Assembly (NCBI GenBank): GCA_947473045.1
Contig: CANJCO010000036.1
Location: 1 to 50,448, forward strand
Direction: 5' to 3'
DNA length: 50,448 nucleotides
From: Myxococcales bacterium
Lineage (GTDB): Bacteria; Myxococcota_A; Polyangia; Polyangiales; Polyangiaceae
Positions within the stretch are counted from its first letter, which is position 1. Each line of letters starts with the position of its first letter. This document shows, piece by piece, positions 11,423-49,932 of this stretch. The translations under genes were made by a program, and so were the position numbers. The notes beneath the pieces are model-generated. The model searched no databases. It saw nothing but the letters and a program-made list of their open reading frames with translations, and had not been told where the DNA came from.

Positions 11423-11454
11423 GGCACGACCCTTTTGGCTGGGGCGCGGAGGCC

Positions 11455-11460
11455 TGTCAA
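11455..11460 (-). promoter_or_regulatory. Candidate -35 box for the lipid operon
   Basis: A perfect TTGACA on the minus strand, inside CATTGACAGGCC, lies 32 nt before the ATG at 11422. The same twelve-base context and nearly the same distance occur before the HAD gene at 16453. No good -10 hexamer follows, so this is a candidate only. Confidence 0.35.
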
Positions 11461-11510
11461 TGTAGAGCGATTTACGCGGCGGGCTCGCCGGGTGGGCGCC
11501 CCGGCTGCGG

Positions 11511-12407
11511 TCACTTGCAGTCGAACTTGGTCCCGTCGGCGGCGGCGAGCTCACAGCCCTTTTTGCAGGCTTTGTCGAGGGCGAACACGCCGGCCGTGCA
11601 GGTCAGTCGGCTCTTGAGGTCGCCGCTGCACGCGAGGCCGCCCTCTTTGAGGCAGGCGTCACCGAGCTCGGCGAGCGACTGGTCGCACCCGGCCTGGTAG
11701 TGGCTTCGGCCGTCGCGGCCGTAGCTGTTGACGTCGCACTTGAACTTGCCCTTGCAGGTGGGGCCGGGGACGAGCTTGCCGCCCTTACAGACGAGGATGA
11801 TGTCGCCCTTCGGATCGCAGGCCACGGCGAGCTCGGGGTCGTTCGCGTCGCAAGGCTCGCCCACCATGCCCACCGAGCGATCGCAGTTGGGGCTGGTCTT
11901 GATCGAAATGCACTGCTTGCGCCCGCGGCATGGATGAAACGGCACCATTTTCCCCGCGGTACACGCGAGCTCGGCGGTGCCGTCCTCGGTGCAGGCCGAC
12001 CCCTTGATGCAAACGTCGCCTTCTTTTGCGAACGGGTTTTCGCAGTGAGCTTCGCCGCGATCGTCGACGACGCAGCCTTCGCCCGCGCACCGCGTGACGA
12101 ACGCGAGCTTGCCGTTTTGACACAGCAGCTTGGCCTTGCCATCGACGCTGCACGCCCCTGTGTTCTCGGCGACGCACGGATCGCCCACGTCGGCGCGCGT
12201 GCTGTCGCAGGTCGTGGCGCCGTTCGCTTCTGCGCAGCCCGCGGGGCCCTTGCACGTCTCGAGCGTGTACACGCCGCCGGAGCAGGCGAGCCGCGACGTC
12301 GGGGTCTCACAGCCCTTCGCGTGGCCGGAGCAGGACGTGCCCGGCGTGGGCTTGCAGGCGGCGACGAGCAGAGCGGCAGCGGCGAACAGAGAGGCGAGGC
12401 GCTTCAT
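11511..12407 (-). CDS. Cysteine-rich repeat lipoprotein, 298 aa
   Basis: A lipoprotein signal ends in LLVAAC (Cys near residue 18). The mature part is built from about five tandem modules of 45-55 residues. Each follows roughly G-x-x-C, then an acidic or Gly-rich spacer with Cys, then L-x-C-x-x-G-K-L, then C-x4-6-C. Such Cys spacing suggests a chain of small disulfide-stabilised domains exposed in the periplasm or on the cell surface. I do not recognise a named family. The gene is co-directional with the lipid operon downstream but separated by 88 bases, and its neighbours give no clue to function. Confidence 0.82.
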   Translation of the reverse strand: MKRLASLFAAAALLVAACKPTPGTSCSGHAKGCETPTSRLACSGGVYTLETCKGPAGCAEANGATTCDSTRADVGDPCVAENTGACSVDGKAKLLCQNGKLAFVTRCAGEGCVVDDRGEAHCENPFAKEGDVCIKGSACTEDGTAELACTAGKMVPFHPCRGRKQCISIKTSPNCDRSVGMVGEPCDANDPELAVACDPKGDIILVCKGGKLVPGPTCKGKFKCDVNSYGRDGRSHYQAGCDQSLAELGDACLKEGGLACSGDLKSRLTCTAGVFALDKACKKGCELAAADGTKFDCK

Positions 12408-35625: not shown

Positions 35626-35700
35626 CGTCATCGCCCCGGCGTCCGATGGCCCGCGCCAATCGAGTTGACGGGGCGCTCGAAGAGCGGCGAGACTCGTTTC

Positions 35701-38700
35701 ATGGGGTCTTCAATTGAAATGCCACCCGAGTTGACGGGTGAGTGGTCGATTGAAGCCGCCGTCGGAAGCGGCGCGACAGCGGTCGTGTTTCGCGCACGGC
35801 ACGCGCGCACGGGCGCGGTTGGGGCCCTGAAGCTGTTTCGACATGCCCCCGTCGCCAGCGCGCAGCAAGCTGAGCGTGAACTGCTCGCGCTGCTCGACCG
35901 CAGGTGGGGGCCGAGGTTGCTCGACGCGGGGCAGACTCCGGACGGCGCGTCGTTTTTGGTCACGACCTGGACCGAGGGCGAGCCCCTCGACGTTCGACGC
36001 TCGCGCAGCGAGGCCACGCGGTTGCGTGACGCGGCCATCGTCGCCCACGCGGTCGGTCGGGGGCTCGCCGAGCTCCATGGGCTCGGCGTGTGGCACGGCG
36101 ACGTGAAGCCGCAAAACGTGCTTGTTCATGCCCGCGCTCCGGATCGCGACGCCGCCGAGGCGCGAGGTGCGACCCTCATCGACCTGGGACTCGCGATCAG
36201 CAGCGGCTCGGTTGCGAAGGGGGGCACGTACCGCTACGCAGCGCCCGAGCTGGTGGCGGCGGGCGAGGCGAGCCCTGCGAGCGATGTATTCGCGTTGGGC
36301 GTGCTTCTCGCTGAGCTGATCGCGCCGGGCGTTTCCGGCGAGATCGACGCTGCGTCAGCTGCGCGCGGGGCCTCCGCTGGCCCGGGCGAACTACCGGCCT
36401 GGATCGGCGCGATGCTGTCGCGCGCGCCGGGCGGACGACCGTCGGCCGCGTGGATCGCCGAGCGCGCTGCGAGGTATCTGCAGCTGCCGTTCGATCCGGC
36501 CGACCGTGCGCAGGAGCGCGAACATGCCCTGCGGCGATCCTACCTGTGCGCGCGCGCCACCGAGCTGCTGGCCGGCGCGCGGTTGGCCGACGAAGTCGCC
36601 GAGCCCTGCCGCGGCTGGATGACCGACGCGCTCGCGATGCGCGCGACCATCCACGTCCCGCGTGAAGCCGGCGTCATTGCTCCAAGCGACGCTCTGACGC
36701 AGTCTCGATGGCTGGTTTCGCTCGTCGGCCCTGCAGCTGCCGCGTGGCCGGTCGCCGAGCTGGGCGGTGAGTCGAGCCTCGCGGCGCGCCTTGTCGAGCT
36801 CGCGCGTGCGCGGGACGCTGCCGGCTGGACCCTGGACGATCTCTTGAAGGCGGCGCCTTCGCCGCTCGCTGAGCCGCCAGCCGAAGCGGATCGCGCTGTG
36901 TGGATGGTACGCGAGCTGGTTCGAGCGCGCCCCGACGATCGCGCGATCGCGGCGGCAGAAGACCTCACGGCCGCGGGAAAAGCGCCGCAATCCGTCGTCG
37001 TCGAGCTGGTTTCTGCGTTGCTCCGCGCGGGTGAAACCGGACGCGCCTGGCTCGCGCTTTCCGGCGCCGACCCCTCGCTCGACGCCTTGCGGGCCGAGGT
37101 CGCGCGGCGTCGAGGCGAACGGGAGGTGGCGATCGCCCTCGCCGAGTCGGCCATCCGGTCGGAGAAGCAGGTGGAGCTCGCGCGCGCCACGCTGGCTCGC
37201 CTGCGTTGGGATGTCGGCGACGCGCGCGGGGCGGAAGAGGCCCTCGGCGACGCCGCGGACGCCGGCGCGTGCGAGGTTCGTGCGCTGCTCGCGCTGCGTG
37301 CAGGGGCGTTCGACGCTGGCGTGAAGGCTGCGGCTCTCGGCCGCGCGGTGGCCGCCGACGAGATGCCCGTGGCGCGCCTTTGGCTTGTGCAGGGTCTGTT
37401 GGAGCACGCTGCCGGGCGGTCGATCGCGAGCGCGGAGTCGTTCGGGCGCGCGGTCGACCTCGCACGCCGCGCCGGTGCCTGCGCGGAAGAAGCGACCGCT
37501 TTGGTCGGAGAGTCGGCCGCCGCAGCGGATTGCGGGGAGATCAGCCGCGCGCTTTCGACCGCGACGCGAGCCATGTTGCTGTTCGAGCGCCTGGGCAAAA
37601 AGGCCGAGAGTTCGCGCGCGTGGCTGCAGCGCGCGGCGACGTTGTCGACCGTAGGGGCGGCACACGAGGCGGAGCTCGCTGCGCGTGAAGCGATCGCGCG
37701 GTCCGGGCGCGACGCGCAGTCACGGGCGTACGCGCGCTGGGCGATCGTCGAAGCGCGTGCGCCCGGCGATCCAGTCGCCCGCGCCGAGACCATCCTCGCG
37801 CGCGATGAGCTGCAGCGCGGCGGAATTGACGACCGCGTGCGCGCTGCGGCGAGGGCGCTCGTGTGGGCGCCCGAGTCGGTCGAGGCCGACGCCGTGACCG
37901 AGATCGACGCTCTCGCGGAGAGCCTCCCCCACCAAGTGCGCTGCGACTGGTGGGGAGCCCGGGCGCGAATGCTCGCAGCCGACGGATCGGTTGCCCATGC
38001 CGAGCGCGTGCTCGACGGCGTTGTCGGCGCAGCGCTGCAGCCCGGACCGCTTGCGTCGCGCGGTCCTGCGCTCGATGCCGGCGCTCGGCTCGCGGTGTTA
38101 CTGGGGCGCGGAGATGTCGCGCGCCGCCTCGAATCGGCCCGACGCGAGGCCGCATCTCGCCTCGCGCAAACGACGCCTGTCGAGTTCGCCGTATCGATGC
38201 GTGACGTTGCGTGGGCGCACGCACAGGATGACGCCGGATCGCGCGAGGCTTCGTCCTTCGACGCTATACAAATCGCCCAGCTCGAGGTCATCGTGCGCTC
38301 GCTGTCGACGCGCGACAGCCTGAAGTCGCTGCTCGCGCAGGTGCTCGACGCGCTCGTGCTCTGGACGGGCGTCGAGCGAGGTCTGCTGCTGCTGCGTGCC
38401 CACGGCGGCAAGCTCGTTCCGCGGGCTGCGCGCAATCTGGCGAAGCAGGACCTGAAAGGTGATCAGCTCGCACTTTCGATGACGCTCGCTCAGCGCGCGA
38501 TGCAAACGGGCGAGATGGTCGTCGCAGCCGACGCACTCTCGGCGCTCGGTGACGTGCACGCATCGGTGCACGCGCTGCGGCTGCGCAGCGTGCTCGCGGT
38601 GCCGCTCATCGCGCGAGGAGAGGCGCTCGGCGTTGCCTACCTTGACGATCGCGCACGCGCGGGCGCGTTCGGAGAGCGGGAGCGTGCGTGGGTCCGACTG

Positions 38701-39822
38701 CTGGCAGGGCAGGCCGCCATGGCGATCGCGGACGCTCGCGATCAGGTGCTCCTGCGCAGAGCGGCGCGTCGGGCGGAGCGCGCGAGGCTCCAACTCGCAG
38801 AAGCGCTCGCGGCACGCGACGCGGAGCTCGACGTGACCCGGCTCGAGCTGTCCCACGCCCGCGGCGAGGGCGAGACCCGTTTTCGATACGAGGCCATCGC
38901 CGGCCGCAGCGAGCCGATGCGCGCGCTGCTCAAGGTCGTCGATCGGGTGACCGCTAGCGACGTTCCGGTGCTCGTGCTCGGCGAAAGCGGCACGGGCAAG
39001 GAGCTCATCGCTCGGGCGATGCACGAAAACGGCCCGCGTTCGCGGCGGGCGTTCGTCAGCGAAAACTGCGGCGCCGTGCCCGAGTCGCTCCTCGAATCGA
39101 TCCTGTTTGGACACGTGAAGGGAGCGTTCACGGGCGCCTCGCAGTCGAAGGCCGGCTTGTTTGAGGTCGCCGACGGGGGCACGATGTTTCTCGACGAGAT
39201 TGGCGAGATGCCGCTGTCGATGCAGACCAAGCTTCTGCGCGTCTTGCAGGACGGTGAGGTGAGGCCTGTCGGCAGCGAGCGGACGCGCAAAGTCGACCTC
39301 CGGGTCATCGCCGCGACGCATCGCGATCTCGAGGCGATGGTGGCCGACAAGACCTTCCGCGAAGACCTGTATTACCGACTCAACGTCGTCACGCTCCGCG
39401 TCCCGCCGCTCCGTGAACGGCCAGGGGACATCGCGCTCGTCGTGCAACACTTCTTGGCCAAGCACGCTGGCGGTCGCAAGCTCAGGCTCTCCCGGGCGGC
39501 GATGGACAGGCTGTGTGCGTTTCCGTGGCCCGGAAATGTGCGACAGCTCGAGAACGAGATCCGCAGGGCGCTTGTGCTCATGAGCTCCGAAACGCTGCTC
39601 GAGGCCGCGGACTTGTCGCCGGAAGTCCAGCGCGGAGGCCCTGTTGCGGCGCGTGAGTCGGGCTTCGATCTCAAGAGTCGTGTTGACACGCTCGAGCGCG
39701 AGCTGCTCATTTCGGCGCTCGAAAACACGCGCGGCAATCAGACGAAGGCGGCCGAGCTGCTCGGACTGTCACGCTTCGGGCTGCAGAAAATGCTCAAGCG
39801 GTTGGGCATCGGGGTTCGCTGA
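35701..39822 (+). CDS. Serine/threonine kinase fused to a sigma-54 transcription activator, 1373 aa
   Basis: The N-terminal kinase has a Gly loop GSGATAVV, catalytic Lys in GALKLF, a catalytic loop HGDVKPQN (H132-D134-K136; HGD instead of HRD) and DLG as metal motif. A long Ala/Arg-rich helical region without sharp motifs (about 300-860, TPR-like) follows. A GAF-like domain lies near 860-1010. An AAA+ sigma-54 activator domain has Walker A GESGTGK at 1094-1100, GAFTGAS at 1141-1147 for sigma-54 contact and Walker B MFLDEIGEM. A Fis-type helix-turn-helix ends the protein (NQTKAAELLGLSR). I start at ATG 35701; a TTG at 35665 is also open. The last 54 bases overlap the convergent crtI-like gene. 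Confidence 0.9.
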   Translation: MGSSIEMPPELTGEWSIEAAVGSGATAVVFRARHARTGAVGALKLFRHAPVASAQQAERELLALLDRRWGPRLLDAGQTPDGASFLVTTWTEGEPLDVRRSRSEATRLRDAAIVAHAVGRGLAELHGLGVWHGDVKPQNVLVHARAPDRDAAEARGATLIDLGLAISSGSVAKGGTYRYAAPELVAAGEASPASDVFALGVLLAELIAPGVSGEIDAASAARGASAGPGELPAWIGAMLSRAPGGRPSAAWIAERAARYLQLPFDPADRAQEREHALRRSYLCARATELLAGARLADEVAEPCRGWMTDALAMRATIHVPREAGVIAPSDALTQSRWLVSLVGPAAAAWPVAELGGESSLAARLVELARARDAAGWTLDDLLKAAPSPLAEPPAEADRAVWMVRELVRARPDDRAIAAAEDLTAAGKAPQSVVVELVSALLRAGETGRAWLALSGADPSLDALRAEVARRRGEREVAIALAESAIRSEKQVELARATLARLRWDVGDARGAEEALGDAADAGACEVRALLALRAGAFDAGVKAAALGRAVAADEMPVARLWLVQGLLEHAAGRSIASAESFGRAVDLARRAGACAEEATALVGESAAAADCGEISRALSTATRAMLLFERLGKKAESSRAWLQRAATLSTVGAAHEAELAAREAIARSGRDAQSRAYARWAIVEARAPGDPVARAETILARDELQRGGIDDRVRAAARALVWAPESVEADAVTEIDALAESLPHQVRCDWWGARARMLAADGSVAHAERVLDGVVGAALQPGPLASRGPALDAGARLAVLLGRGDVARRLESARREAASRLAQTTPVEFAVSMRDVAWAHAQDDAGSREASSFDAIQIAQLEVIVRSLSTRDSLKSLLAQVLDALVLWTGVERGLLLLRAHGGKLVPRAARNLAKQDLKGDQLALSMTLAQRAMQTGEMVVAADALSALGDVHASVHALRLRSVLAVPLIARGEALGVAYLDDRARAGAFGERERAWVRLLAGQAAMAIADARDQVLLRRAARRAERARLQLAEALAARDAELDVTRLELSHARGEGETRFRYEAIAGRSEPMRALLKVVDRVTASDVPVLVLGESGTGKELIARAMHENGPRSRRAFVSENCGAVPESLLESILFGHVKGAFTGASQSKAGLFEVADGGTMFLDEIGEMPLSMQTKLLRVLQDGEVRPVGSERTRKVDLRVIAATHRDLEAMVADKTFREDLYYRLNVVTLRVPPLRERPGDIALVVQHFLAKHAGGRKLRLSRAAMDRLCAFPWPGNVRQLENEIRRALVLMSSETLLEAADLSPEVQRGGPVAARESGFDLKSRVDTLERELLISALENTRGNQTKAAELLGLSRFGLQKMLKRLGIGVR

Positions 39823-41370
39823 ACGGAGCGCCGGGCGCGGAAACGCTTCGTCGACGCTCGGCGCGCGCGAGGGCGCGAGCGGCTTGCCGAAGCGAGCTGC
39901 AATGTCGGTCGCCGCGATGTTGGCGCTCTCGAAGATCGTCAGAAGCCCGCTGCCGGGATGCGTGCCGCCCCCCACCCAGTGCAGATTTTCAATGTCCTCA
40001 TCGCGCGACTTCGGCCTCATCGGGCCGAGCTGCATCCACGTGTGCGAGAGGTTGAACACGGCGCCTCGAAAGACGCGAAAGTCGTCGCGCCACGTCTCGG
40101 CGGTGTAGCTGCGCTCGAAGCGAATGTGGCGCTCGACGTCGTGGATTCCGACCTTGGCGAGACGCCCCTTGATGTGTGAAGCAAACGACTTGGCCTTCGC
40201 CTGCCAATCAACCGCGACGCCCGTGTTTGGGCACGGCACGAGCACGTAGAGCGCGGAGTGTCCCTCCGGCGCGTTTCCGGGATCGGAGACCGTGGGATTG
40301 CACACGTAAAACGGCGCGTCCTGCTCATCGAGCGCGGCGTCCTTGAGCGCGTCGCGATCGGTTCTGCGTGCGCCGTCCGAGAGGTAGATCGCGTGGTGCG
40401 GGACGTCGCGGTAGACCTTATCGAGTCCCAGGTACAGCATGAACGTCGAACACGAGTACGCGTGCGATTCGAGCGCGGTGTCGGTCGCGTGGGGGCGGTG
40501 TTCAGGGGCGATCAGCGCCCGCTTCGCTAGCGCCAGGTCCGCGTTCACCACGACATGGCCCGCGGCGATAAACTCGCCGGTCGCGAGTTTGACGCCGGTC
40601 GTCGCCCCCCCCGCCACGACGATTTCGCGAACTTCGCTTTCCATGCGCACGACCCCTCCGAGCGCCTCGAACGCCCGGAGCATGCCGTCGGCGAGCGCGC
40701 GAAATCCGCCCTTTGGGTGCCAGACGCCAAAGGCGAGCTCGAGAAACGGAATGACCGAAAATACGCTCGAGCAAGTCGTCGGATGCAACCCGAGATACTT
40801 CGACGGATAGCTCATCGCGTAGACGAGGCGCTCATCGCCAAGCGATCGCATCAGCGACCTGTACAGCGACTCCCAAGGCATGAACTTCGCCGCCGGAAGC
40901 AGCCGCAGCGGGTTGAAGTACGACGGCAAGCTGTGCGCGTCGTGGGCGATGAACCGGTCGTAGGCAATCGCGTATTTCTCCGTGTGCTCCTCAAAAAACC
41001 GATCGAACCGATCCGCGCCGTTCGGCACGAGCCTGGCCCACTCGTCGCGGTTGCGGTGCGGATCAGAAAACGTGTCGAGGTGGGAGCCGTCCCAAAAGTG
41101 AATGCGGGTGTTGGGATCGACCGGCTCAAGAGTCACGTAGTCTTCGATGCGCAGCCCGGCGCGCGAAAATATCTGCGCTAGCACGTGAGGCAGCTGAAGA
41201 ATTGTCGGCCCCGTGTCGAACGCGTACCCGTCCTCGACGATGCGCCCCATGCGCCCGCCCGGCGTCGCCTTGGCCTCGATGAGCGTGGTTTTTAGACCCA
41301 TTCCAGCGAGCAAAATGGCGGTCGCGAGGCCGCCGGGGCCCCCTCCAACGACGACAACGTGGCGGTTCAT
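39769..41370 (-). CDS. Phytoene desaturase-type FAD oxidoreductase (CrtI family)
   Basis: The dinucleotide-binding motif VVVVGGGPGG at residues 5-14 is followed by IEAKATPGGRMG. The C-terminal FAD signature WVGGGTHPGSGLLTIFESA, typical of bacterial CrtI-type desaturases, is present. At 533 residues it is close to the family norm of about 500. Such enzymes dehydrogenate phytoene or related carotenoid or polyisoprenoid precursors at the membrane. No phytoene synthase or other carotenoid gene is nearby, so substrate is inferred from family only. I use the ATG at 41370, where the Rossmann motif begins; frames to 41454 add an unconserved tail. The stop lies inside the convergent activator gene. 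Confidence 0.88.
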   Translation of the reverse strand: MNRHVVVVGGGPGGLATAILLAGMGLKTTLIEAKATPGGRMGRIVEDGYAFDTGPTILQLPHVLAQIFSRAGLRIEDYVTLEPVDPNTRIHFWDGSHLDTFSDPHRNRDEWARLVPNGADRFDRFFEEHTEKYAIAYDRFIAHDAHSLPSYFNPLRLLPAAKFMPWESLYRSLMRSLGDERLVYAMSYPSKYLGLHPTTCSSVFSVIPFLELAFGVWHPKGGFRALADGMLRAFEALGGVVRMESEVREIVVAGGATTGVKLATGEFIAAGHVVVNADLALAKRALIAPEHRPHATDTALESHAYSCSTFMLYLGLDKVYRDVPHHAIYLSDGARRTDRDALKDAALDEQDAPFYVCNPTVSDPGNAPEGHSALYVLVPCPNTGVAVDWQAKAKSFASHIKGRLAKVGIHDVERHIRFERSYTAETWRDDFRVFRGAVFNLSHTWMQLGPMRPKSRDEDIENLHWVGGGTHPGSGLLTIFESANIAATDIAARFGKPLAPSRAPSVDEAFPRPALRSANPDAQPLEHFLQPEA

Positions 41371-41489
41371 AGGGCCTTCGATGCTGCTGCGGCTGCCGGG
41401 CGCAGGCAACCGCTCAGTCGGCGTGCGCATCACTTGTCGAGAAGCACTGGACATGGATCGAAAGTCGCGATAAACGACGCCACTCGCTC

Positions 41490-41798: not shown

Positions 41799-42563
41799 AT
41801 GGATCACGTCGACCCCAATCTTCCTCGCAATGATTTCGGCTGGTACAGCCACCGCACCGGCAAGCAGATGCCGATCGTCCAGTACGGCACCTCGGGGCAC
41901 CCGCTGCTGCTGCTGCCCACCGCCCAGAGCGACCTCTATGACTGCGAGCGCTTTCTGCTCATTCGGTCGATTCAGCACCACATCTTCGCGGGGCGAGTCA
42001 CCGTTTTCTCGATCAACAGCGTTAACGCCGACGCATGGATGAATGACAAGGTGCCGGTGCCGGTCGCCGCGCGCCGCCAGGCCGGTTATTCGGCTTACGT
42101 CGAACAGGAAGTTGTGCCCCATATCCGCCGATGCGTCGGCGATGCGAACGCGCGCATTGGAATTACGGGTGCCAGCTTCGGGGCCTTTCACGCGGCGAAT
42201 CTCTTCTTCCGCCGCCCGGATGTGTTCGACACGCTCGTCGCTATGAGCGGCTTCTACGATTTGATTCCCAGCTACACGCAGGGGCTGATGAGCGACGATA
42301 TCTATTTCAACAATCCGATGAGTTACATACCGAACATCTCGGATCCCGGAGTGCTCGATATCATCAAAAACCACACCCAGATTCATATCGTGAGCGGGCA
42401 GGGCGCCTACGAGGCGCCGAACGCGTCGCGGCGATTTTCTTCAGCACTTTGGGCCAAAGGCATCTGGAACAACCTCGACCTCTGGGGCCATGACATGCGT
42501 CATGATTGGCCGACCTGGCATCGCATGCTCGACTTTTACATCTCGGAGAAGCTCGGATGGTAG
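41799..42563 (+). CDS. Esterase-like alpha/beta hydrolase, 254 aa
   Basis: The nucleophile elbow is GASFG with Ser126 in GITGASFGAFHAAN, after a short first strand (GTSGHPLLLLPTAQ). Candidate catalytic His are H231 and H235 in WGHDMRHDWPTW. The fold resembles the esterase family that includes enterochelin-esterase and mycolyltransferase-like proteins, with no signal peptide, so it is cytoplasmic. I start at the ATG at 41799; the open frame runs back into the tRNA, which cannot be coding. It overlaps the next gene by 7 bases and begins an operon with two ligases, so it may hydrolyse or transfer an ester or amide in the same pathway. Confidence 0.85.
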   Translation: MDHVDPNLPRNDFGWYSHRTGKQMPIVQYGTSGHPLLLLPTAQSDLYDCERFLLIRSIQHHIFAGRVTVFSINSVNADAWMNDKVPVPVAARRQAGYSAYVEQEVVPHIRRCVGDANARIGITGASFGAFHAANLFFRRPDVFDTLVAMSGFYDLIPSYTQGLMSDDIYFNNPMSYIPNISDPGVLDIIKNHTQIHIVSGQGAYEAPNASRRFSSALWAKGIWNNLDLWGHDMRHDWPTWHRMLDFYISEKLGW

Positions 42564-43522
42564 TGGGGCTCAAGCGCGGCGGTGCGCCGCTGCGCGTTGG
42601 GCTCTTCGTCGGTCGCGAGCGCTCGTTTCCCGAAGCGCTTATCGCCGAGGTTCACGCACGCGACGCCGGGGTGACCGTCGAGCTTGCCGAAATGTCTGCG
42701 CCGAGCGCTCTCGAACCCTCCCCGTATGATGTGCTGGTCGACCGCATATCGCACGACGTCGTCTGTTTTCAGCCCTACTTGAAGCTCGCGGCGCTCTACG
42801 GCGCCCGAGTCATCAACAATCCTTTCTGGCGCATCGTCGACGACAAGTTCTTCAACGCGGGGCTTGCTGCGCGGCTCGGCATCGCGGTGCCAAAGACCCG
42901 GCTCCTGCCGCAAAAGTCGTACGGCCCCGACACCACCGCCGGCTCGCTGCGCAATCTTCGCTACGTCGACTGGAATGAGCTGGCGGCCGATCTCGGCTTC
43001 CCCATGTTCATCAAGCCGCATTGGGGAGGCGGCTGGAAGGACGTTTCTCGCGCGAAGGACATGCGCGCGCTCATGGTCGCCTACGACGCCAGCGGCGCGC
43101 AGACGATGATCGTGCAGGAGGAAATTGTCTGGACGCAATACATCCGGTGCATCGTCATCGGGCAGCGCGACGTGCGTCCGGCCCTGTGGGATCCCAGGCT
43201 TACGCATCTCGATCGCTACAAACGCGCTCACGAGACAATGCCGGCGATGACCCCCGAGCTTGAGCAGCGCGTGCTCGATGACGCGCTTCGAATCACGCAG
43301 GCGCTCGGCTACGACATGAATACGGTCGAGTTCGCCGTGCGTGACGGCATCCCCTACGCGATCGATTACATGAATTCGGCGCCCGACTTCGATGTCTCGT
43401 CGCTCGGCGAGGCTCACTTCGAGTGGGTCGTGCGGCGAATGGCCGAACTTGTTATCGACGCGGCCAATACCCAATCTCCTGTGCGAAATCGCTGGGATGA
43501 GCTTTTGCGGAGTTCTCGCTGA
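42557..43522 (+). CDS. ATP-grasp ligase (copy A), 321 aa
   Basis: The ATP-grasp features are MFIKPHWGGGWKDV near residues 154-167 (ATP-binding Lys and Gly-rich loop), IVQEEIVWTQYIRC in the hinge region, and acidic metal ligands in MNTVEFAV and YAIDYMNSAPDFD. Enzymes of this fold join a carboxylate to an amine through an acyl-phosphate. The ATG at 42557 has GGAGAA 6 nt upstream and overlaps the esterase stop. The stop TGA overlaps the next ATG (TGATG). It is a clear paralogue of the ATP-grasp gene at 46748-47701, sharing DDKFF, GYDMN and APDFD at matching positions. Substrates unknown. Confidence 0.87.
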   Translation: MVVGLKRGGAPLRVGLFVGRERSFPEALIAEVHARDAGVTVELAEMSAPSALEPSPYDVLVDRISHDVVCFQPYLKLAALYGARVINNPFWRIVDDKFFNAGLAARLGIAVPKTRLLPQKSYGPDTTAGSLRNLRYVDWNELAADLGFPMFIKPHWGGGWKDVSRAKDMRALMVAYDASGAQTMIVQEEIVWTQYIRCIVIGQRDVRPALWDPRLTHLDRYKRAHETMPAMTPELEQRVLDDALRITQALGYDMNTVEFAVRDGIPYAIDYMNSAPDFDVSSLGEAHFEWVVRRMAELVIDAANTQSPVRNRWDELLRSSR

Positions 43523-44763
43523 TGTTTGCGCCCCTCCGTGATCCCTTCAACAGGCACTACTCCGACGCGCTCTTTCATCGGTATCGCGATTCGCTGACCT
43601 CGAAGCTCGGCGGTTTCCCGTTCCGGCTCGCCGAGACTCCGCTGTTTTTTCCGCGGAGCCTTGTTGATCATCTGGGCGATTCGGCTCTGCAAATCGTTGA
43701 GCAGCTCTCTGCGCCCGCGACGCTCGCCGCCCTGCGCCGCGCGATACCGGCGCATTACAACGTGCCGGGCATGACGAGTCTGCCTGATTGCGTGCAGGTA
43801 GATTTCGCGATCGTGCAGACTGCGGACGGTCAATTCGAGGGCCGCGTCGTCGAGCTGCAGGCGTTTCCGTCGCTCTACGCGCTCGAAACCATCGAGGCGG
43901 ACGCGTGGGCCGATGTCCTGCGCGACGTGCCCGGGATGGGCGGAGAGCTCACCTGTTTCTTCTCGGAGGACCGGGCGAAGGCGGTCGAGTTGATGCGTCG
44001 CTGCATCGTCGGCGACAACGACCCTGCCGAGGTGGTTCTCGTCGACTATCAGCCACTCTCCCAAAAGACGCTGCCAGACTTTCTCGCTACCAAGCGGCTG
44101 TTTGGCGTCGATGCCGTCTGCGTCACGGAAATCGAGAAGGAGGGGCGCCGGCTCTTCCGTCGTGTTGCGGGAAAGCGTGTGCCCATCGCGCGAATCTACA
44201 ACCGCCTCGTTTTCGACGAGCTCGAGCAGAAGGGGGTGTCCGTTCCATTTTCGTGGAACGAGGAGCTCGACGTCTCCTGGTGTTCGCACCCCAACTGGTA
44301 CTGGGTGTGGTCGAAATTCTCTCTCCCGCACGTCGACCACCCCACGGTGCCGCAGGCTCGCTACCTCTCGGAGTTTCGCGAGCTACCGACCGATCTGGAC
44401 AACTACGTACTCAAGCCGCTGTTCTCCTTCGCAGGCTCGGGCGTCATCGTGGACGTGACGCGCGAGGCATGCGATGCGGTGCCGGTCGAGCTCCGGGACA
44501 AATACCTGCTGCAGCGCAAGATCGAGTACGCGTGGGCCATTCGAATGCCCGGTACGGAGCCTGGCGAAGTGCTTGGCGCGCACAACGCAGTCAAAGCTGA
44601 GGTGCGTGTCATGCTCATGCGAGGCGGCGAGGGCGAACCGCTCGTTCCGCTTCTACCTCTCGTACGGCTGTCTCGCGGAAAGATGCTCGGCGTAGACCAG
44701 AACAAGGCGGCCGAGACCGAGTGGACCGGCGGCAGCGTCGGCCTCTGGCTCGCCGGACAGTAA
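43522..44763 (+). CDS. Unassigned ATP-grasp-like protein of the ligase operon, 413 aa
   Basis: I cannot name a family with certainty. The central and C-terminal part looks like an ATP-grasp fold: YVLKPLFSFAGSGV (Lys and Gly-rich loop near residues 294-307), LLQRKIEYAWAI (hinge) and NAVKAEVRVMLM (metal-binding segment). An earlier conserved-looking stretch is VPGMTSLPDC, then VVELQAFPSLYAL. The order could fit a permuted or glutathionylspermidine-synthase-like ATP-grasp. The start overlaps the previous stop (TGATG), so it is made together with copy A. A GC-rich terminator region follows. It is a good candidate for a third amide-forming enzyme of the cluster. Confidence 0.72.
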   Translation: MFAPLRDPFNRHYSDALFHRYRDSLTSKLGGFPFRLAETPLFFPRSLVDHLGDSALQIVEQLSAPATLAALRRAIPAHYNVPGMTSLPDCVQVDFAIVQTADGQFEGRVVELQAFPSLYALETIEADAWADVLRDVPGMGGELTCFFSEDRAKAVELMRRCIVGDNDPAEVVLVDYQPLSQKTLPDFLATKRLFGVDAVCVTEIEKEGRRLFRRVAGKRVPIARIYNRLVFDELEQKGVSVPFSWNEELDVSWCSHPNWYWVWSKFSLPHVDHPTVPQARYLSEFRELPTDLDNYVLKPLFSFAGSGVIVDVTREACDAVPVELRDKYLLQRKIEYAWAIRMPGTEPGEVLGAHNAVKAEVRVMLMRGGEGEPLVPLLPLVRLSRGKMLGVDQNKAAETEWTGGSVGLWLAGQ

Positions 44764-44765
44764 GC

Positions 44766-44810
44766 CGCGGGGCTGCTTCGCCCGTCAGGGGCCCCGCGTG
44801 TAGGGGCCCC
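44766..44810. terminator. Competing GC-rich hairpins between convergent genes
   Basis: Two alternative 8-bp stems share one strand: CGCGGGGC (44766-44773) with GCCCCGCG (44791-44798), and GGGGCCCC (44788-44795) with GGGGCCCC (44803-44810). They lie in the 55-base gap between stops at 44763 and 44819 and may terminate from either side; there is no U-tract. Confidence 0.5.
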
Positions 44811-44818
44811 CGGTTCGT

Positions 44819-45922
44819 TCAGATTCCGCGCATCGTCTCTGCGATGAGCCAATCGACGACCGCCTTCGGATCTTTGGTTCGCTCGTAGACTTCGATTTGG
44901 CGGTGCGCGCTCGTCCCCTCGCGGGCGATGTCGATCGCCTTGCGGACGATGTCGCGCGTACCCAGAATTTCGGCGGCCTCACCGACGAACTCGACGAGCT
45001 CGACGATGAGGTCGGCGAACGGGCGCTCCTCCCGTCGGCCGAAGTCGATGAGCTTTGCGTCGCTTCCAAAGCGAACGGCGCGCCACTTGTTCTCCTCGAT
45101 AAGGCTGCGCGGATACGAGCGCCACTGCGTGTTGCGGCGATACATCAAGTACAGCTGCGCCATCAGCGCCTGAATGAGCGCGACGATCGTGATCGTTTGG
45201 TCCATCGAGGTGGGCATGTCGCAGATTCGAATCTCGACGGTGTCGTAGATGTGGTGCGCTCGCACGTCCCACCAGATCTTCTTGCCGTCATCGATGCAGC
45301 CGGTCTCCACCAGCAGCTTGACGAAGCTCTGGAAGGCCTCGTAGCTCTTGAATTCGTCGGGAATTCCGGTTCGCGGGAAGCGCTTGAAGATCTGCGACCG
45401 CATGCTCATGAGTCCGCCGCGGCGCCCGAGCCAGAAGGGCGAACTGGTCGTGAGCGAAAGCAGGTGCGGAAGAAAATACCGAATCTGATTTTGCAGGGCG
45501 ATCGCGACTTCTTTGTCTTTAATGCCGACGTGCACGTGCAAACCGAAGATCAGGTTCGCGCGGGCGACGTCCTGCAAGTCCTCGATGATCGTGTAATATC
45601 GTTGATTCGGGCTGATTTCCTGCGTCTTCCAGTCGCTGAACGGATGGGTCGACGCCGCCACGATGCGCAGCCCGCCCTGCCGCGAGAGGCGGTCGAGTTC
45701 GCCTCGCATCTCGATGAGTTCGCTTTTTACTTCGGCCACGTTGCGGCACACGTTCGTTCCGACTTCGACCACCGACTGGTGCATCTCCATACGAACGCGC
45801 TCGCGAAGCACGCTTTTCCCATCTTCCAGGAGGCGCGAGATGTAGCTCTTCAGCTCGCGCGTTTCAGGGTCGACGATTTGATATTCTTCTTCGACGCCTA
45901 GGGTGAACTGACCGTCCAACAT
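44819..45922 (-). CDS. GCS2-type carboxylate-amine ligase (YbdK-like), 367 aa
   Basis: The protein begins FTLGVEEEYQIVDPETREL, the signature of the glutamate-cysteine ligase type 2 (GCS2/YbdK) family. Other family features are MEMHQSVVEVGT, ANLIFGLHVHVGI and VEIRICDMPTSM. These enzymes form a gamma-glutamyl or similar amide bond with ATP, and many of them belong to peptide-like metabolite clusters rather than glutathione synthesis. At 367 residues it is full length. It faces the ligase operon convergently, and its start is divergent from the MarR regulator across a 294-base gap. The amino acid substrate cannot be stated. Confidence 0.9.
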   Translation of the reverse strand: MLDGQFTLGVEEEYQIVDPETRELKSYISRLLEDGKSVLRERVRMEMHQSVVEVGTNVCRNVAEVKSELIEMRGELDRLSRQGGLRIVAASTHPFSDWKTQEISPNQRYYTIIEDLQDVARANLIFGLHVHVGIKDKEVAIALQNQIRYFLPHLLSLTTSSPFWLGRRGGLMSMRSQIFKRFPRTGIPDEFKSYEAFQSFVKLLVETGCIDDGKKIWWDVRAHHIYDTVEIRICDMPTSMDQTITIVALIQALMAQLYLMYRRNTQWRSYPRSLIEENKWRAVRFGSDAKLIDFGRREERPFADLIVELVEFVGEAAEILGTRDIVRKAIDIAREGTSAHRQIEVYERTKDPKAVVDWLIAETMRGI

Positions 45923-46216
45923 AGCGACAAGTTACTATCAGACTCGGCAAGTGCGCGAGGTCGCAATTGTGCGCGGCGCGAGATCTGCGGGCGCGGCGGG
46001 CGACAGGTCGGGGTGGCCGGGGGCCGTCCGGGATGTGGCCGGGCCGGGTGGTTGGGGTCCCCCGACCGCCACGCGGCGCGAGTAACCGGCGCCGTCGGTC
46101 GTTAGCTAGCTTGCGATCACGACTAAATCGGGGGGCTTTCCGCGCGGACCCACTCTCTTCCCAACCACTCCCCGCGCCCTCGCGCCGTCGGCACGTCCGG
46201 TGCATGGACGCGCCCC
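45923..46216. other. Long intergenic region between the GCS2 ligase and MarR genes
   Basis: No convincing gene is seen. A very GC-rich stretch at 45990-46080 contains the hairpin GGTTGGGG/CCCCGACC at 46050-46067. Next to the GCS2 start, GATAGT on the minus strand (45939-45934) could serve as a -10. AT-richer sequence at 46101-46130 (TTAGCTAGC, TTGCGATCA, TAAATC) is the most promoter-like part before the MarR gene. The region is a natural place for a MarR operator, but I cannot point to a clean palindrome of the usual form. Confidence 0.5.
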
Positions 46217-46714
46217 ATGCACTTCCTGTCCTTCAGCGCGAAGCGCGCCTATTACGCGACTCTGGCCACCGGCCGCCAACTTGCGCGCCATTTCGGCCTC
46301 ACGCCCGCCCGCTTCGATCTGCTTTACGCTGCCCATTCGCCCAGTGGCCAACATCGCACGCAGTCTGCCATCCGGGCGAAACTGGGCGTCGCGCGCGCGA
46401 CGATCTCCCGGATGCTCGCGCGTCTCGAATCGCTTGGCCTCGTCAGGCGGACACGGAGCCTGTCGGACAGGCGCACTCTCGAAGTTCGCCTGACCGAGGA
46501 GGGGCTCCGCCGACTACGCCGCACGCAGTACTGCGTTAGCGCTGCCGGCTACCTTGATAACGCCTACGAGGGCTTTTACGAAAGCGCAGGCTATGAGCTG
46601 GTCCCGGACAGGTACATCGCAGTCGACGAACTCAATAGCTGCATTCGCAGCCTTGCGCGTCATTTCGGAGACCGCGCTATGCTTCATTACCCGGGTGATC
46701 CGATGCTCGAATGA
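46217..46714 (+). CDS. MarR family transcription regulator, 165 aa
   Basis: A winged helix-turn-helix of the MarR type is clear: IRAKLGVARATISRMLARLESLGLVRRTRSLSDRRTLEVRLTEEGLRRL. It has the recognition helix around residues 55-70 and the wing with the family-typical SDRRTLEVRLTEEG. Flanking helices would form the dimer interface. MarR proteins are usually repressors released by a small molecule. Its place in the middle of the amidoligase genes suggests it controls them, perhaps sensing the pathway product. A 9-bp inverted repeat at 46690-46738 overlaps its 3' end. Confidence 0.88.
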   Translation: MHFLSFSAKRAYYATLATGRQLARHFGLTPARFDLLYAAHSPSGQHRTQSAIRAKLGVARATISRMLARLESLGLVRRTRSLSDRRTLEVRLTEEGLRRLRRTQYCVSAAGYLDNAYEGFYESAGYELVPDRYIAVDELNSCIRSLARHFGDRAMLHYPGDPMLE

Positions 46715-46738
46715 CGAACAGTTAACCGGTCACCCGGG
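46690..46738. terminator. 9-bp inverted repeat between MarR and ATP-grasp genes
   Basis: CCCGGGTGA (46690-46698) and TCACCCGGG (46730-46738) pair perfectly across 31 bases. They span the end of the MarR gene and the gap before the convergent ATP-grasp stop at 46748. It may be a bidirectional terminator or a protein-binding site. Confidence 0.4.
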
Positions 46739-46747
46739 CTTGAGCCT

Positions 46748-47701
46748 TCAGGCGCGCTTGGGGCGCTCGCTGGCTTCCTGAGCCAAATATCGCCGATAAC
46801 CGTAGTGCGGTTCGTGTTTTCGTCCCTCACGGGCGCACGTGATTACGTGTTTCGCCATCTGGTCGACTACGATGTTGAAGTGCTTCGGCAGAATTGAATT
46901 CACGTCGAAGTCGGGCGCTGGATTGGTGAAATCGATCGCGTACGGGACGCCATCGCGACACGCGAATTCCACGGAGTTCATGTCATAGCCCAATGCGTGA
47001 TTGAGCGCATAGGCCCCGTCAAGGACCTGATTTTCCAAGGCTTTCGGCATGAAGGCGCCGTCGTTTTCTACATAACAGCGTCGCTTGGGATCGTACTGAA
47101 TCGGATAGATGAATTCCTTGCCGATGCAGATGCATCGAATGTACTGGTCGAATTCGATCCCTTCCTGCAACGTCATCACGAGCTCGTGACTCGCGTTGTA
47201 CGCAGCCATGAGCTCGGCCATGTTCTCGACCTTCGTTACGTTTTTCCAGCCGCCGCCATCGGCCGGCTTAAGAAACGCGGGAAACCCGACGTATTCGGCG
47301 ATCGCCTCCCAATCGAGCGGGAACTCCAGGTTGCGCAGACTGCGGCTGGGGTCGATTCCCTTCATATAAGAGCGCTGGGGCAGGAGCACGGTGCGCGGAA
47401 CGGCGACCCCGATTTTCGCGGCGAGCGAATATCCGAAGAACTTGTCGTCACTCGACCACCAAAACGGATCATTGATGACGTAGGCGCCTGCGAGCGCGGC
47501 GTTCTTGAGGAAGAATCGGTAGAAAGGGACCTCGTGGCTGAGGCGATCGACAATGACACTGTAGTTCATGTCGAGGCGCTCTTTTACCGCGCCAATTTTG
47601 ATGAGGTCGGCGTGAAAGCCGGGCGTCTCGTTAACCTTGGCGATGAACGCGCCAGGGAAGGTGTTTTCCATGCCGACGATGAGGCCGATTCGTTCCGTCA
47701 T
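46748..47701 (-). CDS. ATP-grasp ligase (copy B), 317 aa
   Basis: A paralogue of the ligase at 42557. Its ATP-grasp features are AFLKPADGGGWKNV (ATP-binding Lys and Gly-rich loop), LQEGIEFDQYIRCI (hinge), and MNSVEFACRDGVPYAIDF with APDFDVN (metal ligands). The N-terminal RIGLIVGMENTFPGAFIAKV matches RVGLFVGRERSFPEALIAEV of copy A closely, so the two arose by duplication. I start at the ATG at 47701, where the copies align; an upstream start at 47719 is open. It lies downstream of the glutamine-amidotransferase-like gene on the same strand, 87 bases away. Ligase activity is secure by family; substrates are unknown. Confidence 0.87.
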   Translation of the reverse strand: MTERIGLIVGMENTFPGAFIAKVNETPGFHADLIKIGAVKERLDMNYSVIVDRLSHEVPFYRFFLKNAALAGAYVINDPFWWSSDDKFFGYSLAAKIGVAVPRTVLLPQRSYMKGIDPSRSLRNLEFPLDWEAIAEYVGFPAFLKPADGGGWKNVTKVENMAELMAAYNASHELVMTLQEGIEFDQYIRCICIGKEFIYPIQYDPKRRCYVENDGAFMPKALENQVLDGAYALNHALGYDMNSVEFACRDGVPYAIDFTNPAPDFDVNSILPKHFNIVVDQMAKHVITCAREGRKHEPHYGYRRYLAQEASERPKRA

Positions 47702-47737
47702 AGGCGCGGAGCCTACCATGCGCCCTACAATCTTAGG

Positions 47738-47761
47738 AACGCCGGATTCGCGCGCGGCGTT
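47738..47761 (-). repeat. Inverted repeat between glutaminase-like and ATP-grasp genes
   Basis: AACGCCG (47738-47744) and CGGCGTT (47755-47761) form a 7-bp stem with a 10-base loop in the 87-base gap between two minus-strand genes. It could be a terminator, an attenuator or an operator; nothing in the sequence decides which. Confidence 0.35.
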
Positions 47762-47788
47762 TCACAATCGTTTGGCGGTGCGCGACGC

Positions 47789-48697
47789 TCAGACGGCGAC
47801 GTCGAAATCCTGCATGCCCATCATCGGAGGCCCGAGCTCGTTCCAGCCGCGGCCTCCCGCCAATTCGTTGAATCGGTAGGTCAGCCATCCCGGGACGAGC
47901 AGCGCGAAGGTTTTGGCGAGCCGGTCGGGGTTGCCGAGGCTCTTCACCATTCGATCAAGCAGCGCGTCTCCGTAAGCCAGCCTGAGCGCATTTTGACTCT
48001 CCGGCTTTTCGACCCACGCCATGACTCCGGGCTTGTCGGCCTCTGGATGGAACTGCGTGCCGTCGACGCCCGCGGTGAAGCGAATCGCGAGTGCGGCGTC
48101 GCCCTTGTGCGCCCCGTGAGACTCATGCGTCTCGGTCGCGAGTACGGCCCCTCCGATGTCCGCGAGGCGCTGGGAGTCGAGGTCAACCGCCTGCCAATCG
48201 CGGTGTTCCCAGCTAAACAGCCGGTACCCAAAGGGACGAAGGTAGTCGGTCGCCTCTCCGTCGGCCGTCATGTAGGCCGGCATCAGCCCAAATTTTTTCG
48301 TCTCGCGTCGGGCCATCTGCGCGACGCCGTAGTGGAGCACGCCGAGCTCGAACGAGTGGCAAATCAGAAGCGCTTTTGGGGACGTGAAACGGTCCTTCAA
48401 ATTCGCCTCGGTGACGCGGTCGAGGAAGGCGCGGTACCCCGTGGACCAAGGGTCTTCGTAGCCGTCGGTCGGGGCGCCAGGACCGCCTGACGAGAGCAGC
48501 AAGTCGGTGTCGGCGTCGGGCAGCTCGCCGAGATTTCGAGGTTGTACGTGCTTGAATACGACGTCGAGCGAAGGGTTCGCCTCCCGAACGCGCTTCGAAA
48601 AACCGTCGACGAGGCGACGGAAGCACCGGGTCGCTTGGTTGGCGACGCCGTTGTTCATGTCGACGAGGCAAACTTTCAAGCGCGAGGGATGCTGCAT
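47789..48697 (-). CDS. Class I glutamine amidotransferase-like protein, 302 aa
   Basis: The triad of class I glutamine amidotransferases is complete: nucleophile C113 in ALLICHSFELGV and the His/Glu pair H217 and E219 in GTQFHPEAD. The oxyanion-strand motif LLSSGGPGAPTDG lies at about residues 67-79. The domain normally hydrolyses glutamine and hands over ammonia, but relatives cleave gamma-glutamyl bonds. No synthase domain is fused. Placed beside a GCS2 ligase and ATP-grasp ligases, it may supply ammonia or remove a gamma-glutamyl group. I start at the ATG at 48697, since upstream residues to 48751 do not fit the fold. It is divergent from the subtilase with 53 bases between. Confidence 0.87.
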   Translation of the reverse strand: MQHPSRLKVCLVDMNNGVANQATRCFRRLVDGFSKRVREANPSLDVVFKHVQPRNLGELPDADTDLLLSSGGPGAPTDGYEDPWSTGYRAFLDRVTEANLKDRFTSPKALLICHSFELGVLHYGVAQMARRETKKFGLMPAYMTADGEATDYLRPFGYRLFSWEHRDWQAVDLDSQRLADIGGAVLATETHESHGAHKGDAALAIRFTAGVDGTQFHPEADKPGVMAWVEKPESQNALRLAYGDALLDRMVKSLGNPDRLAKTFALLVPGWLTYRFNELAGGRGWNELGPPMMGMQDFDVAV

Positions 48698-48750
48698 GGC
48701 GATGATAAAGGTTAGCAAACTTGGGACTATTTTGACATGGTGTTCGCCCA

Positions 48751-49932
48751 ATGCCGCGAAAATCCGAGGGAAAGAGCTCTGTCATACCGACGCCGTTGTC
48801 ATCCCGCGGGGGCCGCGAGCGCGAGCCGTTGCCGCTGTCGGAGCGCTTGCATGCAGACGCGCGCTTTACGGGCCGCGGGGTCACCGCTGCCTTCATCGAC
48901 TCCGGGTTCTTCGCCCATCCCGACCTGATGACGCCGCATTCACGCATTCACGCCTTCCACGATGTGATTGCCAACACGGGAGGCACGGAACTTGTGGGCG
49001 TCGCCGACGCTTCTTCCTGGCACGGCATGATGTCGACGGTCGTTGCAGCCGGGAACGGATCGCTGAGCGGCGGGCGCTTTAAGTCCCTGGCGCCGGACCT
49101 CGGCCTCGTGCTCGTGCGGGCGGGCACCCTCTCCCGGGTGCACCACGACGACATCGCGAGGGCGATCGAGTGGGTGCTCGTTAACCGCGCGCGCTACGAC
49201 ATTCGCGTCCTCAATATTTCCTGCGGCGGCGACTACGAGGCGAGCTACCTCGATGACCCAATGAGCAGGTTTGCCGAGGCGTGCGTTCGCGCCGGCATCG
49301 TCGTTGTCGCCGCGGTAGGCAATTCTGGCTTCAAGCCGGGCTACGTCGTGCCGCCGGCCAGTGTTCCCGCGGTCATCAGCGTCGGGGGACTCGACGACGA
49401 GGGGAACCCGCACCTCGGGCGACTTTCGGCCTACCGCAGCAGCTACGGTCCGACCATCGACGGTATCCAGAAGCCAGAGATCATTACGCTCGCCGACTGG
49501 ATTCCCGCCCCGATCCTGCCCGAGACGCCGACCCACAGAGAGGCGATGCTACTGCGCAAATTCGAGAAGGCTGCCGACGAGGACTTGCGTCGCCTCGTCG
49601 ACGAGCACCCGGGCCTCTTTCCGGCGCTCGACATGGCCAAACACCAGCCGCCGTACCTGATGCGACAGGTCATCGCGGCGGCGCTCCGCGACGAAAAGGT
49701 GATTCACGACCACTACAAGATGGTCGATGGCACCAGCTTCGCGGCTCCCATTGTCACGAGCGTCGTTGCTCAGATGCTGGAAGCGAATCCGGCCCTGAAG
49801 CCGGCCCAGGTGAAGCGCATACTTGTGCAGACGGCGAAGCGGGTACCGAATATCGAGTTCGACAGGCAGGGCTGGGGCGCGATTCAGCCGAAGCTGGCCG
49901 TCGAGAAGGCGATCGAGACCGGGCGAGGGTAG
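48751..49932 (+). CDS. Subtilisin-like S8 serine peptidase, no signal peptide, 393 aa
   Basis: The catalytic residues are D50 (AAFIDSGF), H91 (SSWHGMMS) and Ser at about 329 (DGTSFAAP). The oxyanion Asn is near 192 (VAAVGNSGF). The N-terminus (MPRKSEGKSS) has no signal peptide and no pro-domain of the usual size, so the enzyme should stay in the cytoplasm. About 135 residues separate the oxyanion Asn from the Ser, roughly twice the distance in subtilisin. The extra part (about 255-320) is charged and helical. It is divergent from the amidotransferase-like gene, sharing a 53-base promoter gap. It may process a protein target or the cluster product. Confidence 0.9.
   Translation: MPRKSEGKSSVIPTPLSSRGGREREPLPLSERLHADARFTGRGVTAAFIDSGFFAHPDLMTPHSRIHAFHDVIANTGGTELVGVADASSWHGMMSTVVAAGNGSLSGGRFKSLAPDLGLVLVRAGTLSRVHHDDIARAIEWVLVNRARYDIRVLNISCGGDYEASYLDDPMSRFAEACVRAGIVVVAAVGNSGFKPGYVVPPASVPAVISVGGLDDEGNPHLGRLSAYRSSYGPTIDGIQKPEIITLADWIPAPILPETPTHREAMLLRKFEKAADEDLRRLVDEHPGLFPALDMAKHQPPYLMRQVIAAALRDEKVIHDHYKMVDGTSFAAPIVTSVVAQMLEANPALKPAQVKRILVQTAKRVPNIEFDRQGWGAIQPKLAVEKAIETGRG

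Follow-up and report, generated by a model that had tools for sequence, protein, structure and literature searches.

Several described systems resemble the gene cluster considered here. One is the synthesis of glutathione, glutathionylspermidine and trypanothione by GCS, GSS and GspS. Another is the class of amidoligase neighbourhoods predicted by Iyer and colleagues in 2008 and 2009, in which GCS2-like ligases and ATP-grasp ligases reportedly occur beside GATase-like thiol peptidases and further hydrolases, with peptide metabolites as the predicted products. For YbdK of E. coli, to our knowledge, no physiological substrate has been established. A further example is the fungal E-64 pathway, in which stepwise standalone amide ligases make a small pseudopeptide (PMC12568646). 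The same source, citing Pederick et al. 2023, describes YgiC and YjfC as peptidyl-polyamine synthetases.

The window, that is, the whole stretch of DNA that was analysed, is a contig of 50,448 nucleotides (C36) from a 5.15-Mb genome. Between positions 41799 and 49932 the initial annotation had placed eight neighbouring genes for amide ligases, hydrolases and a MarR regulator. All eight ORFs are open at these positions, and their families were confirmed by Pfam and NCBIfam scans and by two predicted folds. Catalytic residues are kept in the seven genes that have relatives, that is, in all but the MarR gene. With high confidence, these seven genes form a functional unit. Our preferred reading, with a probability of roughly 0.6, is that the unit is an NRPS-independent pathway dedicated to the synthesis and turnover of a short peptide or peptide-amide.

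The first three genes lie on the forward strand. They are EST (41799..42563), an esterase D-like alpha/beta-hydrolase (PF00756), followed by AG1 (42557..43522), a RimK/LysX-like ATP-grasp ligase of a second clade with weak ATP-grasp matches, and ORF3 (43522..44763), a predicted ATP-grasp ligase without a sequence family. The stop codon of EST and the start codon of AG1 share the sequence ATGGTAG at 42557-42563, and the junction of AG1 and ORF3 reads TGATG at 43520-43524. Because each stop overlaps the start of the next gene, the three genes look translationally coupled. ORF3 is convergent with GCS2, with 55 bp between them.

ORF3 had been described as an unassigned, ATP-grasp-like third ligase. 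At E 0.1, neither Pfam nor NCBIfam has a family that matches it, and assignment through the PDB failed, as a profile search found no sequence match there. Its structure was predicted by AF2 from 18 homologues, with a mean pLDDT of 85. The model matches YgiC of E. coli with a VIA Z score of 24.9 (343 residues, rmsd 3.5), YjfC of E. coli with 24.3, the glutathionylspermidine synthetase GspS with 22.5, human GSS with 22.3 (plant, yeast and human glutathione synthetases all score about 22) and Cp1B, a ligase of the fungal E-64 pathway, with 21.6. The next structural group, RimK/LysX/Ddl, follows at a Z of about 7, far below these scores. On this model ORF3 is a real ATP-grasp enzyme with the fold of glutathionylspermidine and glutathione synthetases. 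Since it fits this fold but no sequence model, it is best described as having the same fold, not as a member of the family. Its ATP-grasp-like nature is thus upheld, and the label “unassigned” can be dropped.

Residues D94, E111 and N394 of ORF3 are invariant, and the candidate metal-binding motif reads E111-x-Q113 in the sequence comparison. The metal ligand motif of GspS is E-x-N, as opposed to E-x-Q in ORF3. A profile scan of about 85,000 genomes found at least 589 relatives, the best 80 of which come from Myxococcota, Acidobacteriota, Planctomycetota, Gemmatimonadota and KSB1. Among the matches listed, those in Polyangiales include Sorangium, Polyangium and Minicystis. Plasmid-borne spread was rejected, as neither ORF3 nor AG2 had a match in 72,556 plasmids.

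AG2 (46748..47719, reverse strand) is the core RimK/LysX-like ATP-grasp ligase of the set, recognised by its orthologues and their co-occurrence. Both AG1 and AG2 give weak matches to RimK/LysX/Ddl-like ATP-grasp models, every one under the curated cut-off; against TIGR00768 (RimK) they score 27.5 and 34.1 bits, with a cut-off of 143.4. By sequence, they are related to RimK without being RimK proper. The pair had been taken for a duplicated ATP-grasp. The two proteins are 49% identical and fall into separate clades, which rules out a recent duplication and points instead to old paralogues. AG1 clusters with the only AG that Acidobacteriota and Planctomycetota have (SH-aLRT 93), and AG2 with the remaining Myxococcota copies. 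Orthologues of AG2, defined at 53% identity or more, adjoin GCS2 in many loci. One AG1-like copy elsewhere (G287, contig C96, 32129-33070) has one in-frame TAG, and may be a decaying gene or reflect a sequence error.

The GCS2 gene (44819..45922, reverse strand) encodes the YbdK-type ligase of the set. It scores 509.6 bits against NF010039 (cut-off 371) and 302.9 bits against TIGR02050 (cut-off 176.4), matches PF04107 above cut-off, and finds YbdK (PDB 1r8g) at E=4.6e-45. Residues E11, E13, R221, E230 and R232 are among those invariant in 26 homologues. By curated model, GCS2 is thus classed as a full member of the YbdK-type carboxylate-amine ligase family, with predicted ligase activity.

Between GCS2 and AG2 lies a segment of roughly 820 bp (45928-46749) that carries the MarR-family regulator (46217..46714, forward strand) in the opposite orientation. 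The gene itself is present as annotated (PF12802). Its membership in the set could not be maintained: no MarR homologue occurs in any system locus compared, and in a genome of the same genus (G340) only about 50 bp separate AG2 and GCS2 opposite this segment. A role as conserved system regulator is ruled out on these grounds, and the segment is read from sequence comparison as a lineage-specific insert outside the system. The regulator may still control the window's own copy.

GAT (47789..48697, reverse strand, in an ORF that extends to 48751) had been called glutaminase-like. Its start is probably at 48697, not 48751, because homology begins there. It has no Pfam match, and in NCBIfam only a weak one (13.1 vs 205 bits). 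Its AF2 model (pLDDT 88) reaches Z 22.5 to the stand-alone GATase TM1158 and 21.4 to the Arabidopsis gamma-glutamyl peptidase GGP1; these two and homoserine transsuccinylase are tied at Z 21-22.5, followed by gamma-glutamyl hydrolase at 18.6. The Cys-His-Glu triad (C131, H235, E237) is invariant in 23 sequences, down to about 20% identity. Going by the model, GAT has a real class I GATase fold that is about equally near to gamma-glutamyl peptidases.

The fold leaves two readings of the reaction. In one, GAT is a true glutaminase that gives ammonia to one of the ligases, so that the product is a primary amide and the rest of the pathway is unchanged. The intact triad agrees with this, as does the fact that the top structural match, tied with a gamma-glutamyl peptidase, is a glutamine amidotransferase. 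Other genomes, which lack GAT, speak against it, for they carry the metallopeptidase M29 (PF02073, E=1.9e-15) in the same operon slot. Among 39 whole genomes with ORF3, 17 carry M29 at the locus, and GAT is missing from every one of them. Of the 22 without M29 at the locus, GAT is present in 21, including those in which ORF3 is on its own, and the last has neither hydrolase. A candidate division KSB1 genome (L173) has an ORF3 homologue, no GAT and no neighbouring M29.

GAT and M29, the latter scored at the locus, thus follow the exclusive pattern in 38 of 39 ORF3 genomes (Fisher p about 4e-10, with kinship ignored). On the ORF3 tree, the GAT state is a single deep change, so the split has no independent replication and the Fisher test overstates independence. 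The system exists in two versions, each keeping its own hydrolase. Since GAT or M29 occupies the same slot, the simplest inference is that both do the same job, with GAT acting as a peptidase or gamma-glutamyl hydrolase and not as an ammonia donor. The GATase fold and triad behind the earlier label hold, a peptidase-type hydrolase is the likelier function, and the ammonia-donor reading is improbable.

The last gene, SUB (48751..49932, forward strand), is a subtilase of family S8 (PF00082, E=3e-33), whose triad D50, H91 and S329 is invariant in 14 homologues. It is not present in the Acidobacteriota loci and so may be a Myxococcota addition. A PADLOC search gave only generic subtilase and HTH matches and no system, and an anti-phage defence system was rejected. 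In EST, S126 and H235/D236 are invariant among 24 homologues.

Other genomes were searched for co-occurrence of the genes, as the initial annotation had proposed: in Acidobacteriota and Planctomycetota, EST, AG, GCS2 and ORF3, together with GAT or M29, are packed into tight operons. One type has the order EST-AG-GCS2-M29-ORF3; it is found in Acidobacteriaceae, where EST is the first gene, and in Planctomycetes, where EST is divergent. The other, AG-GCS2-GAT-ORF3, occurs in Thermoanaerobaculia and other Acidobacteriota. Gaps are mostly under 250 bp, and GCS2 and M29 usually overlap by 1 nt. Of 47 ORF3 loci (L136-L182), 26 have GCS2 in the available stretch, and many contigs are short. Within Myxococcota, GCS2-AG2-GAT-SUB runs adjoin ORF3 in three loci (L107, L142, L145), and L110 has such a cluster without GCS2. 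Because the families recur in tight operons of other phyla, their conservation is far beyond chance.

These operons also bear on a graspetide-type RiPP, in which AG1 and AG2 would cyclise a ribosomal precursor cleaved by SUB. ATP-grasp enzymes and proteases do pair up in some RiPP loci, and SUB is weakly similar to cyanobactin protease models. The short operon gaps, however, offer hardly any space for a precursor gene, and no conserved one was seen among ORFs of at least 80-100 aa. Moreover, neither GCS2 nor a GspS-fold ligase is a hallmark of graspetides, and the graspetide survey that was searched does not contain the term GCS2. This origin is very unlikely.

Other arrangements were noted in the loci compared. 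In L107 (6997-9984), and also in L108, L109 and L114, EST and ORF3 flank a gene for an M61 glycyl aminopeptidase-PDZ protein and one for an ATP-grasp_4 ligase; in the window, AG1 takes this position. In Myxococcota genomes without the system (L285-L288, L290), an ATP-grasp_4 protein, an ATP-grasp of roughly 416 aa that is about 30% identical to AG1 and AG2, and an EST homologue are found close together. Three Acidobacteriota loci (L138 3520-5342, L153, L157) have ABC-2 type transporter genes directly upstream of their AG-GCS2-GAT-ORF3 operon, which possibly encode an exporter of the pathway product.

In Polyangiales, the genes of the system are often scattered. For instance, a 13.3-Mb genome in two contigs (G336) has GCS2 and AG2 adjacent at 7.12 Mb, GAT at 7.53 Mb, SUB at 7.56 Mb, ORF3 at 5.91 Mb and AG1 at 12.20 Mb. 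Such distances in many Polyangiales would suit mere coincidental neighbours of unrelated function, and the initial annotation had held that scattering in related genomes would make the cluster coincidental. Taken literally, this is what Polyangiales show. The unit nevertheless stands, because the scattered genes share the same genomes and cluster in other lineages.

Their distribution among 124 Polyangiales genomes was compared. AG2 orthologues, GAT and SUB share one and the same set of 25 genomes. ORF3 is present in 23 of these carriers and nowhere else among the 124; GCS2 is present in 21, plus three outside at 55% identity. AG1-type second copies are found in 19 genomes, all of them carriers, and EST, counted from 56% identity upwards, in 13. 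Two genomes (G036 and G111) keep AG2, GAT and SUB without ORF3 or GCS2, so a genome can hold only part of the set.

Mapped on an rpoB tree of 85 genomes, presence switches six times. GAT, SUB and AG2 are concordant in five of five independent pairs, and ORF3 in at most four, with none discordant. With only five independent pairs the sign test cannot fall below p = 0.0625, so this result is supportive and by itself not conclusive. Together, the conserved operons in other phyla and the matching phyletic profiles lead us to reject coincidence, which they contradict for EST, AG, GCS2, GAT and ORF3, with fewer observations for SUB and AG1; it is the least probable reading considered.

How the peptide pathway might run can be outlined from the enzyme families. 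GCS2 would activate a side-chain carboxylate, likeliest the gamma-carboxylate of glutamate, and join an amine to it. AG2, and AG1 where present, would use acyl-phosphate chemistry to lengthen the chain. Like GSS, GspS and YgiC, ORF3 would put the last amino acid or amine on the chain carboxylate. GAT, or M29 in other lineages, would take off a terminal residue, possibly gamma-Glu. SUB may trim or degrade, and EST may cut an ester or thioester or release the product.

The ORF3 fold, being that of peptide-extending and peptide-capping ligases, counts for a peptide pathway. The proposal that ligases and hydrolases act as a unit is borne out, with three kinds of amide ligase, and the small peptide-like product suggested with it is consistent with the enzyme set. 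We have moderate confidence in a small peptide or peptide-amide as the product; the gamma-glutamyl linkage we only infer.

The main rival to this pathway is protein tagging, in which the ligases would put amino acids or a short peptide on a protein, and SUB, GAT and M29 would remove the tag. RimK-like and GS-fold ligases act in this way in known systems (RimK on S6, PafA with Pup), peptidases recur in the clusters, and SUB has no signal peptide evident on reading its sequence. Against this, no conserved gene for a small tag protein or a carrier, and no recurring target-protein neighbour, was seen in the loci, the operons have little room, and enzymes of known function with the ORF3 fold work on small peptides or acids. 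Tagging is considered unlikely.

Elsewhere in the window, two long genes were noted. The first (6671-11554) encodes a 1627-aa protein with an unusual order of domains, a NAD_binding_4 reductase followed by AMP-binding, carrier and acyltransferase domains. The second (35665-39822), next to a gene at 39772-41454 that resembles a carotenoid desaturase, encodes a single 1385-aa protein in which a Ser/Thr protein kinase, a GAF, a sigma-54 activator and a Fis HTH domain are joined.

Three phyla, Myxococcota, Acidobacteriota and Planctomycetota, share the set, and ORF3 also occurs in Gemmatimonadota and KSB1; two enzymes of the set lack a family model. The set supplies a defined group of partners for a YbdK-type ligase, and a definite operon, the product of which could be looked for in culturable strains of Sorangium, Polyangium, Minicystis and Hyalangium. 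It is a tentative proposal, at somewhat less than even odds, that this is an undescribed, phylum-spanning pathway to a new small molecule akin to glutathione or trypanothione. Its distinguishing features would be ORF3 and GAT, both absent from Pfam and NCBIfam, a GATase-fold peptidase replaced elsewhere by M29, and genes co-inherited in Polyangiales even when dispersed. Priority relative to the 2009 amidoligase survey (Mol Biosyst 5:1636) is uncertain.

Amidoligase operons are an already known kind, to which the present set belongs, having a like combination of ligases and hydrolases. The 2008 paper (PMC2588565) concerns a different GCS2-sized family from the GCS2 found here. YbdK-type carboxylate-amine ligases (PRK13515, NF010039) belong to the same curated family as this GCS2, which here is operonic with partner genes. 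The fungal E-64 pathway shares the fold of ORF3 through Cp1B, whereas GCS2, GATase and subtilase are not part of its description in the available portion of PMC12568646.

The glutathione, glutathionylspermidine and trypanothione systems, with YgiC and YjfC, share with this set a GCS2-family ligase and an ATP-grasp enzyme of the GSS/GspS fold. ORF3 differs from GSS, GspS, YgiC and YjfC in having no detectable sequence similarity to them, and those pathways lack the extra RimK-like ligases, the esterase, the GATase-fold protein and the subtilase seen here. They likewise pair peptide-extending chemistry with an amidase or peptidase activity, which is predicted here. By analogy, the enzyme set would match their logic, in which a side-chain amide is started, extended and finished, and the product is trimmed or recycled.
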